Made by a program: the position numbers and the translations under genes. From the NCBI RefSeq assembly GCF_000422885.1, contig NZ_AUGX01000008.1, forward strand, positions 186,001 through 250,000: a stretch of 64,000 bases of DNA, read 5' to 3'. The notes beneath the pieces are model-generated. The model worked only from the letters and a program-made list of their open reading frames with translations. It did no database searches and had not been told where the DNA came from. The DNA comes from Ottowia thiooxydans DSM 14619. Lineage in GTDB: Bacteria; Pseudomonadota; Gammaproteobacteria; Burkholderiales; Burkholderiaceae_C. Below, piece after piece: positions 46,904-54,546 of the stretch (positions are counted from its first letter, which is position 1; each line of letters begins with the position of its first letter).

Positions 46904-46991
46904 GGAAGCGTGGCAGAGTGGTCGATTGCACCGGTCTTGAAAACCGGCAACGGGAAACCGTTCGTGAGTTCGAATCTCACCGCTTCCGCCA
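46904..46991 (+). tRNA. tRNA-Ser (anticodon TGA)
   Basis: A class II tRNA of 88 bases. Acceptor GGAAGCG pairs with CGCTTCC, the anticodon loop is CTTGAAA with anticodon TGA, a long variable arm (AACGGGAAACCGTT region) is present, the T-loop is TTCGAAT and CCA is encoded. Its 3' end is the left border of the accessory island, and the stop of the following minus-strand gene lies within it. Confidence 0.97.
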
Positions 46992-47835: not shown

Positions 47836-48557
47836 ATGACGACGAAAATCGATAAAGCAACTACGAAAAACCATAGTCTCAGGGTCAACAATGGCTGTAG
47901 GTTCAGGAGTCAGCGCAAGCGGCTCAACTTAAGGACTGCGGATCTCGATAATCATGGTGGTTGGTCTGCCAGCACGACCTATGGATGGGAAGCGGGTAAG
48001 GCCTCTCCCAAATCCGAGTTCTACGCAAGCACCCAAGACCTTGGCTTTGACGTGGCCTACATCCTCGCGGGGCACCGTTCAGTCAGAACATTGTCTGGCC
48101 CCGCACCCGCTCCGGCTGGGGATTCGAAAGCCATTTACCTGCCGTTGCTGTTGCTCAGTGCCACGGGCAGCCTGGGGCAGTGCAACCACCTCATCACAGA
48201 AGATGTGATCCCGGGCGAAGTGCCTGTATCGCGTAAGTGGAGCGCTTTACACCTGCCCGGTTGTCGGCCCGGCGCCTTGCAGCTGGTGCACTCACACTGC
48301 GACAGCATGGGCGACACGCTGCGCTCTGGTGATTTCGCTTTCGTGACACCGACCACCGCGTGGCCGACGTCAGTGGTTTCCATGCTCTGGAGGCAAACGA
48401 CTAGCTCTTCATTAAACGCGTGTCCCGCCTTCTAGATGGCAGCCGCGAAATCACCAGCGACAACCCCAACGTGCGTACTGTGGAAGTGCCTCGAGGATCG
48501 CACCAAGTTCGTATCTGCGGGCGGATTGTGTACTGGTGGAACGGGTGGCGGTTTTAG
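47836..48557 (+). pseudogene. Broken XRE/S24-type phage repressor
   Basis: An N-terminal HTH region (to about residue 80, ending LGFDVAYILAGHR) is followed by an S24 (LexA/CI peptidase-like) region with MGDTLRSGDFAFV. After this motif, near 48342, one base is missing. The protein continues in another frame (DTDHRVADVSGFHALEAND, then a TAG where homologues read on, then LFIKRVSRLLDGSREI and a C-terminus ending at 48557). A frameshift plus a nonsense codon make it a pseudogene. It supports a prophage or integrative-element origin for the region. Confidence 0.75.
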
Positions 48558-48660
48558 ACCATGTTTGTAATGCCTTGATCGTCAAGTCACATTAGCCTTG
48601 CCATTCGCACATGCAATGAATTTTGCTTAAAAATTTTTGAAATCGATAGGAAACTTGACT

Positions 48661-50121
48661 ATGAGTACTGCAATGACTGAGGAAAACACAATTCATGCTG
48701 TTCCTGTCAAACGGTTTTTCGTTGACATGTTGACCAGAGACATTGATCTAGACGGGGCAATCCTAGATCTGATAGATAACTGTGTGGATGGTGCACTTAG
48801 AAATAGCAAAGAGCAGATTTCCACTCCAGATTTGAATTACCCGTATCACGGTTATTGGGCAGAAATTTTCATCGAGCCTGATAAATTTTCGATAAAAGAT
48901 AATTGTGGCGGCATAAGCAAAGAAATCGCAAAAAACTATGCTTTTAAGTTTGGGCGTGAAGATGTAAATCGCGACGATGGAATCGCAACAGTTGGTCTTT
49001 ACGGCATAGGGATGAAGCGAGCTATATTTAAAATAGGATCATCTGCGGTAATAAAGACAAAAAACAAACAAGATCAATATCTTGTTAAATTTACAAAAGA
49101 TTGGATTCAAAATAAAGATAATTGGGACCTTGTAATTGAGGATGAAACTCATCAGGAGCTTGAGGCCGATGGAAGTCTCATTGAGGTGAGTGATTTAAAG
49201 GAGCATATAAGAATTGAATTCAATGATAATTTAAATTCATATGCCGATCGATTGATCAAATCAATATCAAACAATTACAGCTTCCTTATAAAAAAGGGAT
49301 TTTCTGTAAAAGTTAACTCAGTGCGGGTGCCTCAAAAAAATAGCACCCTACAAATTTCCGATAACGGCTTTGAAGGCAGTGGCATTGCTCCATACTTCTA
49401 CGAGACGATAAGTGATGGGGTTTCGATAATGCTGATAATGGGATTTTATGCAAAATTCCCACAGCTGGCCGATGAAAATGAGAATGAAGAGGCCGATGAA
49501 GTGGAGTCGGGTATCGCGGAATCAATGGAACGATCTAAATACAATGCTGGGTGGACTGTGGTCTGCAATGATCGCGTTATTCTAAGCAATGATATTTCTG
49601 AAAAAACTGGTTGGGGGCTTTATCCAACGACTCCGCATTTTCATACACAGTACGCGGCGATCGGTGGTTATGTAATATTTAATGCGACAGATCCGAAGAA
49701 ACTTCCTTTGACTACCACCAAGCGTGAGATTGACCAAGGTTCCGTCTTGTATATGCAAGTCAAAGAAGAAATGAAGCAGGCAATCAAAGTCATGGTTGCC
49801 TTCACTAATAAATGGAAATCTCGTAGTGTCGAGCGAGACGAAATTCAAGAGTCCTCTAAGAATGTGGACGTTCTTTCTGCAAAGACCGGCATTCCCTCTG
49901 CAAGTCTCCGGCGTGTAACCTCACAGCTTGGTGGAGTCAGATTCAAGCCAAGCTTGCCAGTGCCTGAGAGAGCTACGCAGTCTAGAAGGGTTAAGATTCA
50001 ATACACGAAACCTCGCGATGAATATATGAGGGTAAAAGAGTTTATTTTTGGAGATGAAGAGAAGACGCCGAGTGAAGTAGGTGAGCAATGTTTTGACATC
50101 TATCTCGGAAAGACCAAATAA
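48661..50121 (+). CDS. GHKL-type ATPase (MORC/MutL/Hsp90-like fold)
   Basis: The product is 486 residues from ATG 48661, which has an AGGAAAC ribosome site; an ATG eight codons earlier is less good. GHKL motifs are in order: DLIDNCVDGA (36-45, catalytic Asp/Asn helix), IKDNCGGIS (78-86) and VGLYGIGMKRA (111-121, lid). A transducer-like alpha/beta domain follows to about 340, with an acidic loop near 285, and an unrecognised C-terminal 130 residues. GHKL ATPases related to MORC are known from restriction-modification loci (Iyer, Abhiman and Aravind 2008). The gene is markedly AT-rich against its neighbours and abuts the next gene without a gap. Confidence 0.8.
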   Translation: MSTAMTEENTIHAVPVKRFFVDMLTRDIDLDGAILDLIDNCVDGALRNSKEQISTPDLNYPYHGYWAEIFIEPDKFSIKDNCGGISKEIAKNYAFKFGREDVNRDDGIATVGLYGIGMKRAIFKIGSSAVIKTKNKQDQYLVKFTKDWIQNKDNWDLVIEDETHQELEADGSLIEVSDLKEHIRIEFNDNLNSYADRLIKSISNNYSFLIKKGFSVKVNSVRVPQKNSTLQISDNGFEGSGIAPYFYETISDGVSIMLIMGFYAKFPQLADENENEEADEVESGIAESMERSKYNAGWTVVCNDRVILSNDISEKTGWGLYPTTPHFHTQYAAIGGYVIFNATDPKKLPLTTTKREIDQGSVLYMQVKEEMKQAIKVMVAFTNKWKSRSVERDEIQESSKNVDVLSAKTGIPSASLRRVTSQLGGVRFKPSLPVPERATQSRRVKIQYTKPRDEYMRVKEFIFGDEEKTPSEVGEQCFDIYLGKTK

Positions 50122-51105
50122 ATGAGCGGCGGAAGTTCACCGTACCATTTAAGACTAAACAAATCCATAGAGAGAAATTTGTTTATTGATTTACTGAAAA
50201 TAGTCAGTAGACATACAAATATTTCGGACTATTGGTATGTTGGTTTTGCTGGGCCATTTTCCGAAGATTTCAAACTCATTCATAGTGCGCTCCGCATAAC
50301 AAAAATGAAAAGCTTAGAAATTGATGAAAATGTATTCAGGCGACAAAAATTCAATTACTCCCCAAGTTTTATTGAGTACTACAACAAAAGTTTTAAAAGC
50401 TTCTTGGAAGATGAATTTTATCAGTCACACAAAGGTGAGGCAAATGCTATAACTTGGCTAGACTATGCTGATGCAAAACAAACATTGCCGCAGTTGCAAG
50501 AATTCAGGGAACTTGTTGCTAATTCATCACCTAATGATGTCATTAAAATAACATTGAATGCGAATCCCGCCACCTTAAAAGGACCGGACAAAGTCGCTAG
50601 CTTTAAGTCGCGAATGTCACGATTTTCCCCCGTCAACTTAGTTGAAGAAAATTTATTGGCAGCTAATTTCCCGAATACGCTAATGAAATGTATAAAACTA
50701 TCCCTTGATGGAATAGCGTCCGGGCGAAAAATTCATTTTCATCCGGTGGCATCTTTCATCTACCAAGATACCAACAATAAAATGCTGACTGTGACGGGAA
50801 TTGTTCTGAATAATAATGATGCTGAGACCATTTCAGCATTTGAGAAAAATACACGGCTAGCCCATTGGAAATTTCATAACACCAGTTGGGAGAATCCTCG
50901 TGCTATAAGGGTGCCGTCACTGTCTATCAAAGAGCGCATAGAACTTGATAGTCATTTGCCTTGCGATGATAAGAACAGGGGTCTATTTTTGAAGAGTACC
51001 CTCAACTTTCATCCTGAAGAAACCGAGGACGCTGGAATTGCAGCACTAGAAAATTATGCAGAATACTATAGATCGTATAGTTTATTTACAAAAATCGTTG
51101 TTTAA
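50122..51105 (+). CDS. Rossmann-like (methyltransferase-like) partner of the GHKL ATPase
   Basis: The product is 327 residues; its ATG follows the ATPase stop directly, so the two are surely cotranslated. Residues about 36-75 (YWYVGFAGPFSEDFKLI then MKSLEIDENVFRRQKFN) resemble motif I and the acidic second strand of class I SAM-dependent methyltransferases. ITWLDYAD and VIKITLNANP could be strands four and five. The usual GxGxG is replaced by GFAG, so cofactor use is uncertain. The C-terminal 120 residues are unrecognised. It is AT-rich like the ATPase. Its 3' end overlaps the convergent methyltransferase gene by 24 bases. Confidence 0.65.
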   Translation: MSGGSSPYHLRLNKSIERNLFIDLLKIVSRHTNISDYWYVGFAGPFSEDFKLIHSALRITKMKSLEIDENVFRRQKFNYSPSFIEYYNKSFKSFLEDEFYQSHKGEANAITWLDYADAKQTLPQLQEFRELVANSSPNDVIKITLNANPATLKGPDKVASFKSRMSRFSPVNLVEENLLAANFPNTLMKCIKLSLDGIASGRKIHFHPVASFIYQDTNNKMLTVTGIVLNNNDAETISAFEKNTRLAHWKFHNTSWENPRAIRVPSLSIKERIELDSHLPCDDKNRGLFLKSTLNFHPEETEDAGIAALENYAEYYRSYSLFTKIVV

Positions 51106-52227
51106 CGCATTTTTAATATTTTTCAAAATTATCTCGGCAACTATAGGGGAGACGCTATTTCCTATTTGCCGAAAACTATGCCATTTAGTGCGATGCAATG
51201 AGAACCAGTCAGGAAAACCCTGCAGTCTTGCAGCCTCTCTCGGCGTAATCACCCTTCCGATCGTTGGGTGAATAGGTCGCACCGCTTGGTAGCTGCCTTT
51301 GTCCGAGCCTGTGCCTGCTCTGAGTGTCGGGCAAAACCCATTGGCTTCAAGCCTTGATGATCTTGAAATGGAGTCGGTTTTTCCTGGAAGTAAGGCTGCA
51401 TACCGCTTGCGCACATCTTCGCTATGAACCGTTCCCATGTTGCCATTGACCAACTGCTGTTTAGTGAATTGGGCAATGGCTGCCAAATCCCCGACACCTT
51501 CGGGAATCAACCCCTGGATGCGTAGTGCGTAGTGTGATTCGGGCAGCTTCTCTACTGCTCTAACTCCTTGGGCTTCCGTTTGCCAATCGGAGCGAACCCG
51601 CTTAGGCAAGCCCTTGAGTGCGTAGGCAACGGTCACAGCAGGGATTTCAGCCGGTGCAGAAATTAAGGCACGGGCAGCCTCCGGATCTTGGCAGACATCT
51701 TTTCGCAAACCAATAAAAAATAGGCGTGTACGCGAAGTAGGCGCGCCGTACTCAGACGCTTTAACAACTATTGGTTGAAGGCAATGGTAGTCGTCTGTTA
51801 CGTACTGAAAGGCGTCTTCAAGCATCCCTATGTTTTTGTCATCCTGAATGCCAGGCACATTCTCAGCCAAGAAAAAAATGGGTTTGGCTTCGGCCACAAT
51901 TCGCATGAAATGTGCGAACAATTTGTTCCGCACATCCTTAGGGTCACGTCGACCAATTGAGCTAAAACCCTGACAAGGCGGGCCGCCAATGACGCCCATA
52001 AGCTCCCCGTCTTGAATATTTGCTTGACGCAGGATGTCAGCTGCAGAAAGCGTGGCAATGTCTTGATCCAGGTGGCAAGTGGCAGGAAAATTGCGCCTAT
52101 GCGTTTCATTCGCATGCTTGTCTATCTCCACGGCGGCAGCCAGCGTGAAACCTGCTCGTGCGGCCCCCAGAGACAGTCCTCCTGCCCCTGCGTACAAATC
52201 TATAACCTTATTTTTTTTCAGCGACAT
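51082..52227 (-). CDS. DNA (cytosine-5) methyltransferase, probably M.Eco29kI-like
   Basis: The enzyme methylates cytosine C5 in a DNA target site. The product is 381 residues with all key motifs: I (DLYAGAGGLSLGAA), IV (GGPPCQGFSS, nucleophile Cys85), VI (AENVPG), VIII (SRTRLFFIG) and X (IGNSVSPIVAE). The variable target-recognition region lies about 200-330. Upstream on the same strand are remains of an Eco29kI-family endonuclease, so the likely target is that of Eco29kI (CCGCGG), an inference. It now appears to lack its nuclease and is convergent with the ATPase operon. Confidence 0.93.
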   Translation of the reverse strand: MSLKKNKVIDLYAGAGGLSLGAARAGFTLAAAVEIDKHANETHRRNFPATCHLDQDIATLSAADILRQANIQDGELMGVIGGPPCQGFSSIGRRDPKDVRNKLFAHFMRIVAEAKPIFFLAENVPGIQDDKNIGMLEDAFQYVTDDYHCLQPIVVKASEYGAPTSRTRLFFIGLRKDVCQDPEAARALISAPAEIPAVTVAYALKGLPKRVRSDWQTEAQGVRAVEKLPESHYALRIQGLIPEGVGDLAAIAQFTKQQLVNGNMGTVHSEDVRKRYAALLPGKTDSISRSSRLEANGFCPTLRAGTGSDKGSYQAVRPIHPTIGRVITPREAARLQGFPDWFSLHRTKWHSFRQIGNSVSPIVAEIILKNIKNALNNDFCK

Positions 52228-53821: not shown

Positions 53822-54328
53822 TTAGCTTGCCGCAGCCGTCATGTTTCTTCGTTTCGTCAGCAGCGCGACAAAATCCTTTTGGACTTGTTCCCTGTCGGGA
53901 ACGTTCGGATATCGCAATACCTCGTACCCAGCGCTTCTGAGCATCTGATCTCTGTTTTCGTCCTCGGCCTTTTTGCTGCGGTGCGTGGCATCGTCCAGTT
54001 CGATGACGGCCAATACTTCGAACGCTTTTGAGCAGATCGCGAAGTCTGCAATTTTCCGGGAGAACGTGTTGCGCGTTCCTTGCAGATTCGCGTGCAAGAT
54101 GGCCCCAAAGCTCACTTGTGTCAATACGATCAATGAAGGCAAGGCTTCACTTAATCGATTGAACATGGCTTGCTCTCGATCAGTCAGCAAGGCTTTAGCG
54201 ACCGGCTTTTCTGAGGTGGGTTCTAGTAACTCCTGAACTGGCTCTTCCGGCACCTTCCCTTGCTTCGTTAGCTTTAAAACGATCACCAGCAAAGCTATAA
54301 AAAAAATAGCAAGTATCGCTAACGTCAT
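53822..54328 (-). CDS. Membrane-anchored DUF2726 protein
   Basis: The product is 168 residues from ATG 54328. One membrane segment (about 2-20) is followed by a linker and a DUF2726 domain: LTDREQAMFNRLSEALP, LTQVSFGAIL, DFAICSKAFEVLAVIELDDA, then YEVLRYPNVP. This domain is thought to be a PD-(D/E)XK nuclease relative; the D...E-L-D spacing fits. Such proteins are common in proteobacteria with no known role. An in-frame ATG 14 codons upstream is possible. Confidence 0.8.
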   Translation of the reverse strand: MTLAILAIFFIALLVIVLKLTKQGKVPEEPVQELLEPTSEKPVAKALLTDREQAMFNRLSEALPSLIVLTQVSFGAILHANLQGTRNTFSRKIADFAICSKAFEVLAVIELDDATHRSKKAEDENRDQMLRSAGYEVLRYPNVPDREQVQKDFVALLTKRRNMTAAAS

Positions 54329-54546
54329 GGCTTCCTCCCTTTCATCGCATCTTAAGGGGTTCATCCACACCAGCGTGCTCTTATCGCGCTCTCGCCCAAA
54401 ACACTACGACGGTTGATCTTGACCGCTCCGCCATGACCGGGGATAGCGCAGGCGCCCACAACGATTCAACTTGTGCGTGCTATCGCTGATGGGAATTGGA
54501 AGTTCATCGATCTTCCACACGCACCTTGCGCGCGTCCGATAGATAT

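Follow-up and report, generated by a model that had tools for sequence, protein, structure and literature searches.

A MORC-type ATPase, a Methyltransf_35 protein and a C5-cytosine methylase form a recurrent, mobile three-gene unit, probably an anti-phage system

The subject of this study is a group of three genes from Ottowia thiooxydans DSM 14619, found in a stretch of 64,000 nucleotides of contig NZ_AUGX01000008.1 (positions 186,001 to 250,000 of the forward strand; the whole stretch is called the window, and coordinates are counted from its first letter). The first two genes code for a GHKL ATPase and for a partner protein of the Pfam family Methyltransf_35, and they abut, the partner gene beginning one base past the stop of the ATPase gene. 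The third gene, for a C5-cytosine DNA methyltransferase (C5 methylase), lies on the opposite strand, and its 3' end shares 24 bp with that of the partner gene. An earlier reading made from the letters alone (the sequence-only reading) had described the first two genes as much more AT-rich than everything around them, which has proved correct, and both genes are intact. The pair has a G+C content of 39.6% against a mean of 57.4% for windows of equal length, and the lowest such window that does not overlap the pair has 53.5%. Taken singly, the ATPase, partner and methylase genes have 40.7%, 37.9% and 50.0% G+C, and the window 57.4%. The same reading had regarded the pair as a two-gene unit with a DNA methyltransferase beside it. 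The methyltransferase is present, but it is not a mere neighbour: the loci described below show that it belongs to the unit, and the two-gene description had to be abandoned. The coordinates are collected in Table 1.

Table 1. Features of the three-gene unit and of its left flank in the window
Feature	Position	Strand	Remarks
Whole three-gene unit	48661-52227		
GHKL ATPase, prokaryotic MORC type, 486 aa	48661-50121	+	HATPase_c_3; phrog_20521; alternative in-frame TTG start at 48637
MORC signature GhXhhpXXRhl	49549-49581	+	here GWTVVCNDRVI; ATPase residues 297-307
Methyltransf_35 partner, 327 aa	50122-51105	+	PF20553; phrog_19983; 'putative O-methyltransferase'
Partner glycine loop YVGFAGP	50236-50256	+	residues 39-45; candidate S-adenosylmethionine-binding motif I
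C5-cytosine DNA methyltransferase, 381 aa	51082-52227	-	Pfam DNA_methylase
Helix-turn-helix regulator-like open reading frame, CII-like	47836-48435	+	phrog_4836, 7.8e-09; upstream of the ATPase gene
tRNA-Ser	46904-46991	+	left edge of the variable region at its 3' end

Related loci were collected with an alignment of the ATPase as bait, which was chosen because a scan with the partner alone found nothing and the partner alignment has no stretch that is conserved enough. The bait retrieved 429 relatives on genome contigs and 85 on viral contigs; the best 80 of each were used for the counts, which left out 349 of the genome relatives and five of the viral ones, and the viral counts include five loci with a best ATPase score of 250 bits or lower, all without the partner. 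Because the ATPase was the bait, the sample is biased towards its relatives, and the only counter-sample is a survey from the partner side, in which a GHKL gene stands directly beside the PF20553 gene in all seven distinct loci, the window included. The ATPase gene has the Methyltransf_35 gene as its neighbour in 78 of the 80 genome loci and 70 of the 80 viral loci. The survey supports a conserved and mobile pair of an ATPase and a methyltransferase-like protein, placed in anti-phage contexts. A C5 methylase was found in 70 genome loci and 78 viral loci (148 of 160), and it lies within 1.5 kb of the ATPase gene in 46 of the former and 78 of the latter. Since the host genome (7.05 Mb) has three C5 methylase matches, one of them weak, the expectation for such a neighbour at this distance by chance is well under 1%, an estimate taken from this one genome. 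The C5 methylase is thus the third member of the unit. According to the record titles, the hosts belong to Pseudomonadota, Bacillota, Cyanobacteriota, Planctomycetota and candidate phyla, among others.

The two genes of the pair are closely tied. In 43 of 87 dereplicated loci the end of the ATPase gene and the nearest in-frame start of the partner gene share 4 bp, a figure which is favoured by choosing the nearest start. When pairwise distances were compared across 70 loci, those of the ATPase and the partner were correlated with r = 0.80, whereas the methylase gave 0.33 and 0.37 with the two members of the pair; none of 999 permutations reached any of the three values. As the methylase distances follow those of the pair more weakly, it seems that methylases have been exchanged while the pair stayed together. 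One disrupted copy was also seen: on pSymA of S. meliloti KH46 (L007:8205-13350) an insertion element, of IS66 type as judged by eye, lies between the ATPase gene and the partner gene, which is truncated, and C5 methylase and Vsr genes follow further downstream.

The ATPase of the window matches Pfam HATPase_c_3 at 2.5e-13. Its GHKL motifs are intact, as had been noticed from the letters, with D36, D39, N40, D80, G83, G84, G112, G115, G117, K119, T352 and K354 invariant in all 66 aligned ATPases including this one. The MORC signature of the S5 domain, as defined by Iyer et al. 2008 (PMC2292703), was found in 62 of these 66 homologues, again including the one studied here; the other four deviate at one position, and just one of 317 other open reading frames (ORFs) of 350-650 aa contains it. 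Judged by this published motif, the product of the first gene is a prokaryotic MORC. The nearest PDB entries in a profile search, all weak, were MORC2, MORC3 and MORC4, and a search with the single sequence gave a weak match to MORC3 followed by one unrelated hydrolase. Neither the ATPase nor the partner of the window matched any NCBIfam or PADLOC model at E<=1, and the PHROGs families of both are annotated as function unknown. The nearest PADLOC model is MzaB, to which nine of the 66 ATPase homologues gave weak matches (best 1.3e-06). Longer GHKL ATPases (about 545-630 aa) occur beside the same C5 methylase lineage in the nine loci L165-L169, L171, L172, L176 and L177 and also in L047, L049, L067 and L071; some of these loci are without the partner and some adjoin a full unit, and the ATPase of L049 carries a C-terminal Hypoth_Ymh domain (PF09509). 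Because the tree requires three changes for those nine loci, it seems that different ATPase types have replaced one another beside a single methylase lineage.

The partner matches PF20553 at 1.7e-72 and 244.8 bits, compared with a curated cut-off of 27 bits, and all 75 aligned partner homologues match this family at E<=5 (best 1.9e-104). We found no characterised member of PF20553, and the family is rare: it was matched in three genomes out of 300 from the order and in five out of 398 from the phylum, the genome studied here being counted in each. The glycine loop had been called altered, which is a fair description: most of the 75 homologues follow the consensus Y-x-[G/S]-x-G-[G/S/A], and the window has YVGFAG. 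Position by position, Y39 is present in 100%, residue 41 is G or S, G43 is present in 93% (A in the window) and residue 44 is G, S or A. Residues Y8, R11, K14, R18, Y39, D49, E/D66, R74, W112, D114, T144, Y214, D216 and E271 are invariant or nearly so among the 75 partners. The order of the predicted motifs, with the glycine loop followed by the acidic residue E/D66 and by D114 within WLDY, would suit a class I methyltransferase. When the partner profile was run against 963 non-family ORFs, the top match was a C5 methylase, aligned at motifs I-II with a noise-level score, and the median rank of 25 C5 methylases was 405. The partner profile was not significantly similar to C5 methylases, MmeI, DrmB, DrmC, Vsr or the ATPase set, in tests of low power in which the positive controls, methyltransferase sets expected to match one another, failed too, and the same result, with the same failure of the controls, was obtained with Methyltransf_24 and with a set which we take to be RlmJ-like. 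The alignment with Methyltransf_24 was collinear over motifs I, II and IV, with a score no better than that of a reversed control. A profile search of PDB with the partner gave no match, and the single sequence gave only immunoglobulin chains at noise level.

The methylase of the window matches Pfam PF00145 at 4.5e-58 and contains the C5 methylase motifs PCQ, ENV and QIGNSV. Its nearest solved structure is 3g7u (4e-130), presumably a prophage protein of E. coli. A model seeded by this methylase and six others was used to classify the remaining ones, a score above 300 bits being taken as strong. All three genes are present in 81 dereplicated loci, whose methylases comprise 70 strong and 11 distant ones; a strong methylase thus accompanies the pair in 70 of 102 dereplicated loci. 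In a tree, 62 of the 70 fall into a supported set of 71 rows, which includes nine methylases standing beside another GHKL type; the other eight make up a group next to it. The 11 distant methylases, which include three from DISARM loci, are placed outside. The arrangement of the genes varies. The partner is present in 91 of the 102 dereplicated loci, and the retrieved stretch includes a methylase in 85 of these 91. This methylase is convergent and downstream in 33, as in the window, upstream on the same strand in 31 and placed otherwise in the rest. Five cyanobacterial pairs (L048, L058, L064, L068 and L075) have no C5 methylase in the retrieved stretch and may represent a solo form; L058 and L064 begin near a contig end and L068 has less than 4 kb on one side. 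A second C5 methylase of the host (L179, contig C8, 191974-193128) has a Vsr match and a weak match to GHKL (26 bits) in its vicinity and is perhaps another MORC-like locus.

Where is the unit found? In P2-like phages it lies between the portal gene Q and the replication gene A in 21 of the 80 viral loci and nearly fills this interval, with 370-457 bp left towards Q and 28-713 bp towards A. The same placement, with no other annotated gene in the interval, was found in three annotated chromosomes of E. coli. This interval of P2 was described by Rousset et al. 2022 (PMC9122126) as a hotspot of anti-phage systems, in which P2 itself carries old and tin. In lambdoid prophages, relatives of DUF1367 or DUF1133 accompany the unit in 11 of the 80 viral loci, as they do in an annotated E. 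coli prophage. In the filamentous phage PfAC20 the ATPase, the partner and the methylase are ORF1-3, and other Pf phages carry a retron, ShosTA, Kiwa, Gabija, IetAS and Avs (PMC11878078). A cytosine methyltransferase of PfAC20 was classed there as an incomplete restriction system; the phage record annotates two cytosine methylases, ORF3 and ORF9, and which one was classed is ambiguous in that source. If ORF3 was meant, ORF1 and ORF2 are likely to be the missing partners of the 'incomplete' system. Among 5426 complete E. coli genomes, a lambdoid version of the unit has matches of >=99% in 173, which cover most of it in 172. A P2 version is matched in 47, with most of it covered in 45, at 78% among the matches listed; the two counts come from separate queries, and the genome sets may overlap. 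The RefSeq labels of these E. coli proteins are generic, such as 'ATP-binding protein' and 'O-methyltransferase'.

A further setting is DISARM, genes of which were found in 24 of the 80 genome loci. In 23 of these, drmMI and drmA enclose the pair, and in the remaining one (L022) the contig starts at the pair. The usual order is C5 methylase, Vsr, drmD, drmMI, ATPase, partner, drmA, drmB, drmC; the methylase stands upstream of drmD, as a rule several kb from the pair. For DISARM the pair is optional. When 300 genomes of the order were searched for DrmA, 21 gave matches, several of them distant, and only in G182 does the pair lie within 1.5 kb of the match. Three class 1 DISARM loci without the pair were inspected. 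Two of them have a UvrD-like helicase in the drmMI-drmA slot (L275:9585-11825 and L276:901-3090) and in the third (L277) the slot is empty, so that helicase and pair look like alternative modules.

Turning to the other neighbours, Vsr was found in 41 of the 80 genome loci and 10 of the 80 viral loci but not in the window; HhH-GPD was matched in three of the 80 genome loci. A gene for a HhH-GPD DNA glycosylase (L008:10721-11494) occupies the place behind the unit in which Vsr stands at other loci, and it may be a functional replacement; an Eco29kI-type restriction system lies just upstream of the same unit (L008:5241-7066). ORFs within 6 kb and outside the modelled families were clustered over the 102 dereplicated loci. 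No cluster occurred in more than eight loci, the largest being an integrase as judged by eye, and a HNH cluster occurred in four. The P2-like loci leave little space for a fourth gene.

That MORC-like ATPases occur in restriction-modification loci had been stated in the sequence-only reading, and such restriction operons were described by Iyer, Abhiman and Aravind in 2008 (PMC2292703). The claim that the system is unrecognised stands in part: apart from the methylase nothing in the unit matched PADLOC, but the ATPase is of a known kind, as its signature shows. The unit resembles the MORC and paraMORC loci of PMC2292703 in its GHKL motifs, its MORC signature and its cytosine methylase and Vsr neighbours, and a minority of the MORC loci described there have methylases or endonucleases but no helicase. 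It differs in the Methyltransf_35-like partner, which the portions of that paper used here do not mention; the effectors named in them have restriction-fold, HKD, HNH or TIR domains. The HEF_HK/Response_reg_2 elements of Bellieny-Rabelo 2021 (PMC8011034) also combine a GHKL (HATPase_c_3) protein and a partner gene with C5 methylase and Vsr neighbours; this identity was rejected, as Pfam gave HATPase_c_3 and Methyltransf_35 for the pair of the window and not HEF_HK and Response_reg_2. DISARM (Bravo 2022, PMC9142583) is likewise a methylation-aware anti-phage system, into the drmMI-drmA slot of which the pair is inserted, and was rejected for the present locus since the window has no match to DrmA, DrmB or DrmC and the host genome none to DrmA. 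In the text of a preprint on YprA and DISARM (PMC12458937) the terms GHKL and HATPase are absent. Mza resembles the unit through the weak MzaB matches and was rejected because the ATPase of the window has no PADLOC match at E<=1 and none of the 12 recurrent neighbour clusters is, by eye, like an Mza partner. Type I-D Shedu (VcSduA, PMC12137116) is a tested anti-phage protein with a GHKL ATPase domain; its effector is a fused PD-(D/E)xK nuclease, whereas the partner of the unit is a separate methyltransferase-like protein. A classical Type II restriction-modification system was also rejected: the methyltransferase is present, but no dedicated restriction endonuclease recurs beside the unit in the clustering of its neighbours, which could miss divergent nucleases. 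Among the matches listed in the literature searched we found no name for the three-gene set, although it may be included in the supplementary tables of Rousset et al. The presence of MORC ATPases beside methylases has been known since 2008. For the other features, namely the conservation of the partner, the grouping of three genes, the placement in P2-like and Pf phages and in DISARM, and the frequency among E. coli genomes, no name was met in the same matches.

We think that the three genes probably make up a mobile, restriction-modification-like anti-phage system. According to this model, the C5 methyltransferase would place 5-methylcytosine on host (and prophage) DNA as a mark of self, and an ATP-gated dimer of the MORC ATPase would load onto incoming unmarked DNA and loop, clamp or compact it. 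The Methyltransf_35 protein could be a reader of the methylation state or an effector recruited either to the unmarked DNA or to some cellular target during infection; in the sequence-only reading it would modify or cut a nucleic acid. We slightly prefer the effector, because other MORC-like ATPases have effector domains in the corresponding place, as in VcSduA and in paraMORC3 and 4 with their restriction-fold and TIR domains (PMC2292703); the Hypoth_Ymh domain of L049 may be compared. Vsr, or rarely the HhH-GPD glycosylase, would be an accessory that repairs T:G mismatches arising from the deaminated mark. If the model is correct, a widespread system sits unnamed in E. coli prophages under generic labels, the optional DISARM module is explained and PF20553 gains a role; the unit would also be a small, E. 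coli-compatible system for asking what MORC ATPases originally did with DNA methylation. A bolder version seems possible to us but doubtful. In it, the unit would represent an ancestral MORC immunity that needs no nuclease: 5-methylcytosine licenses self, MORC dimers trap and compact unmarked phage DNA, an effector with a methyltransferase fold and unusual conserved acidic residues modifies DNA, RNA, a nucleotide or a protein during infection, and the pair serves as a plug-in for a lone C5 methylase or for DISARM, where it replaces the helicase.

Several observations weigh against a three-gene defence system. No nuclease except Vsr recurs beside the unit in the 102 dereplicated loci, although fast-evolving ones could escape the clustering; this would mean that the partner is the effector, or that DNA trapping by the ATPase suffices, or that host nucleases finish the process. 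Twelve loci have an ATPase relative but no partner (L066, L076, L165-L169, L171-L173, L176 and L177), ten of them viral and including the longer ATPases. The methylase is exchangeable, with loci of the DISARM type using a distant C5 lineage, often several kb away, and 10 of the 80 genome loci have none in the retrieved stretch. A methylase is also missing from L017. Of the ten, L048 and L075 are without it despite nearly 10 kb on both flanks; L022, L033, L058, L064, L068, L076 and L081 reach a contig end on one side, and in L032 the methylase may sit just past the retrieved stretch. Could the pair then be a methylation-independent abortive-infection module, with the methylase as a frequent but separate passenger, much as the sequence-only reading had it? 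The stronger correlation within the pair than with the methylase would fit this, as would the distant lineages of the accompanying methylases, the few loci without any nearby and the optional place of the pair inside DISARM. We nevertheless regard it as unlikely, since a methylase is present in 148 of the 160 loci, another C5 methylase substitutes when the lineage changes, and in 24 of the 33 convergent dereplicated loci the 3' ends of the partner and methylase genes overlap.

It is also conceivable that the unit is a prophage-borne epigenetic silencer, in which MORC and its partner compact or silence DNA according to its methylation in order to control gene expression or superinfection, the DNA being left intact. 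Transposable elements are repressed by a eukaryotic MORC (PMC4268658), many copies of the unit lie in prophages and no nuclease recurs. On the other hand, a prophage regulator would not need to occur as widely as the unit does, both together with DISARM and in the cellular genomes of many phyla, and we consider a silencer improbable; if phage DNA is stopped by silencing, it overlaps with the anti-phage system proposed above. A role in DNA repair, with a MutL-like ATPase acting together with Vsr on mismatches from deaminated 5-methylcytosine so that a C5 methylase is tolerated, seems to us very improbable. MutL is among the GHKL relatives, Vsr and HhH-GPD are frequent and rare companions, respectively, in the genome loci, and the analogy to mismatch repair was raised by Iyer et al. 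(PMC2292703). However, the pair stays in the viral loci, few of which have Vsr, and in the window, which has none, and placement in an anti-phage hotspot would not be expected of a repair unit. The restriction-modification-like anti-phage system remains our preferred reading.

Finally, some features around the unit should be mentioned. The sequence-only reading had placed the genes in an island bounded by tRNA. In four of five congener loci compared, the DNA matches end at 46991/46992, at the 3' end of tRNA-Ser, which supports the left edge; a second tRNA end was not found, as a search for a duplicate of the tRNA-Ser tail gave none, and the tRNA boundary thus holds for one side of the variable region only. 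The match of one congener resumes at about 54555, on a contig that may be another site. No integrase was detected among the eight ORFs of the window compared with Pfam. The helix-turn-helix regulator-like ORF upstream of the ATPase gene is not among the 12 recurrent neighbour clusters listed. Five promoter-like sites were counted against a shuffle mean of 7.5 and 11 terminator-like sites against 6.8, and neither was used as evidence. To the right of the unit, outside the recurrent neighbour clusters, positions 53822-54370 of the window encode a small protein with DUF2726 and DUF559 matches.

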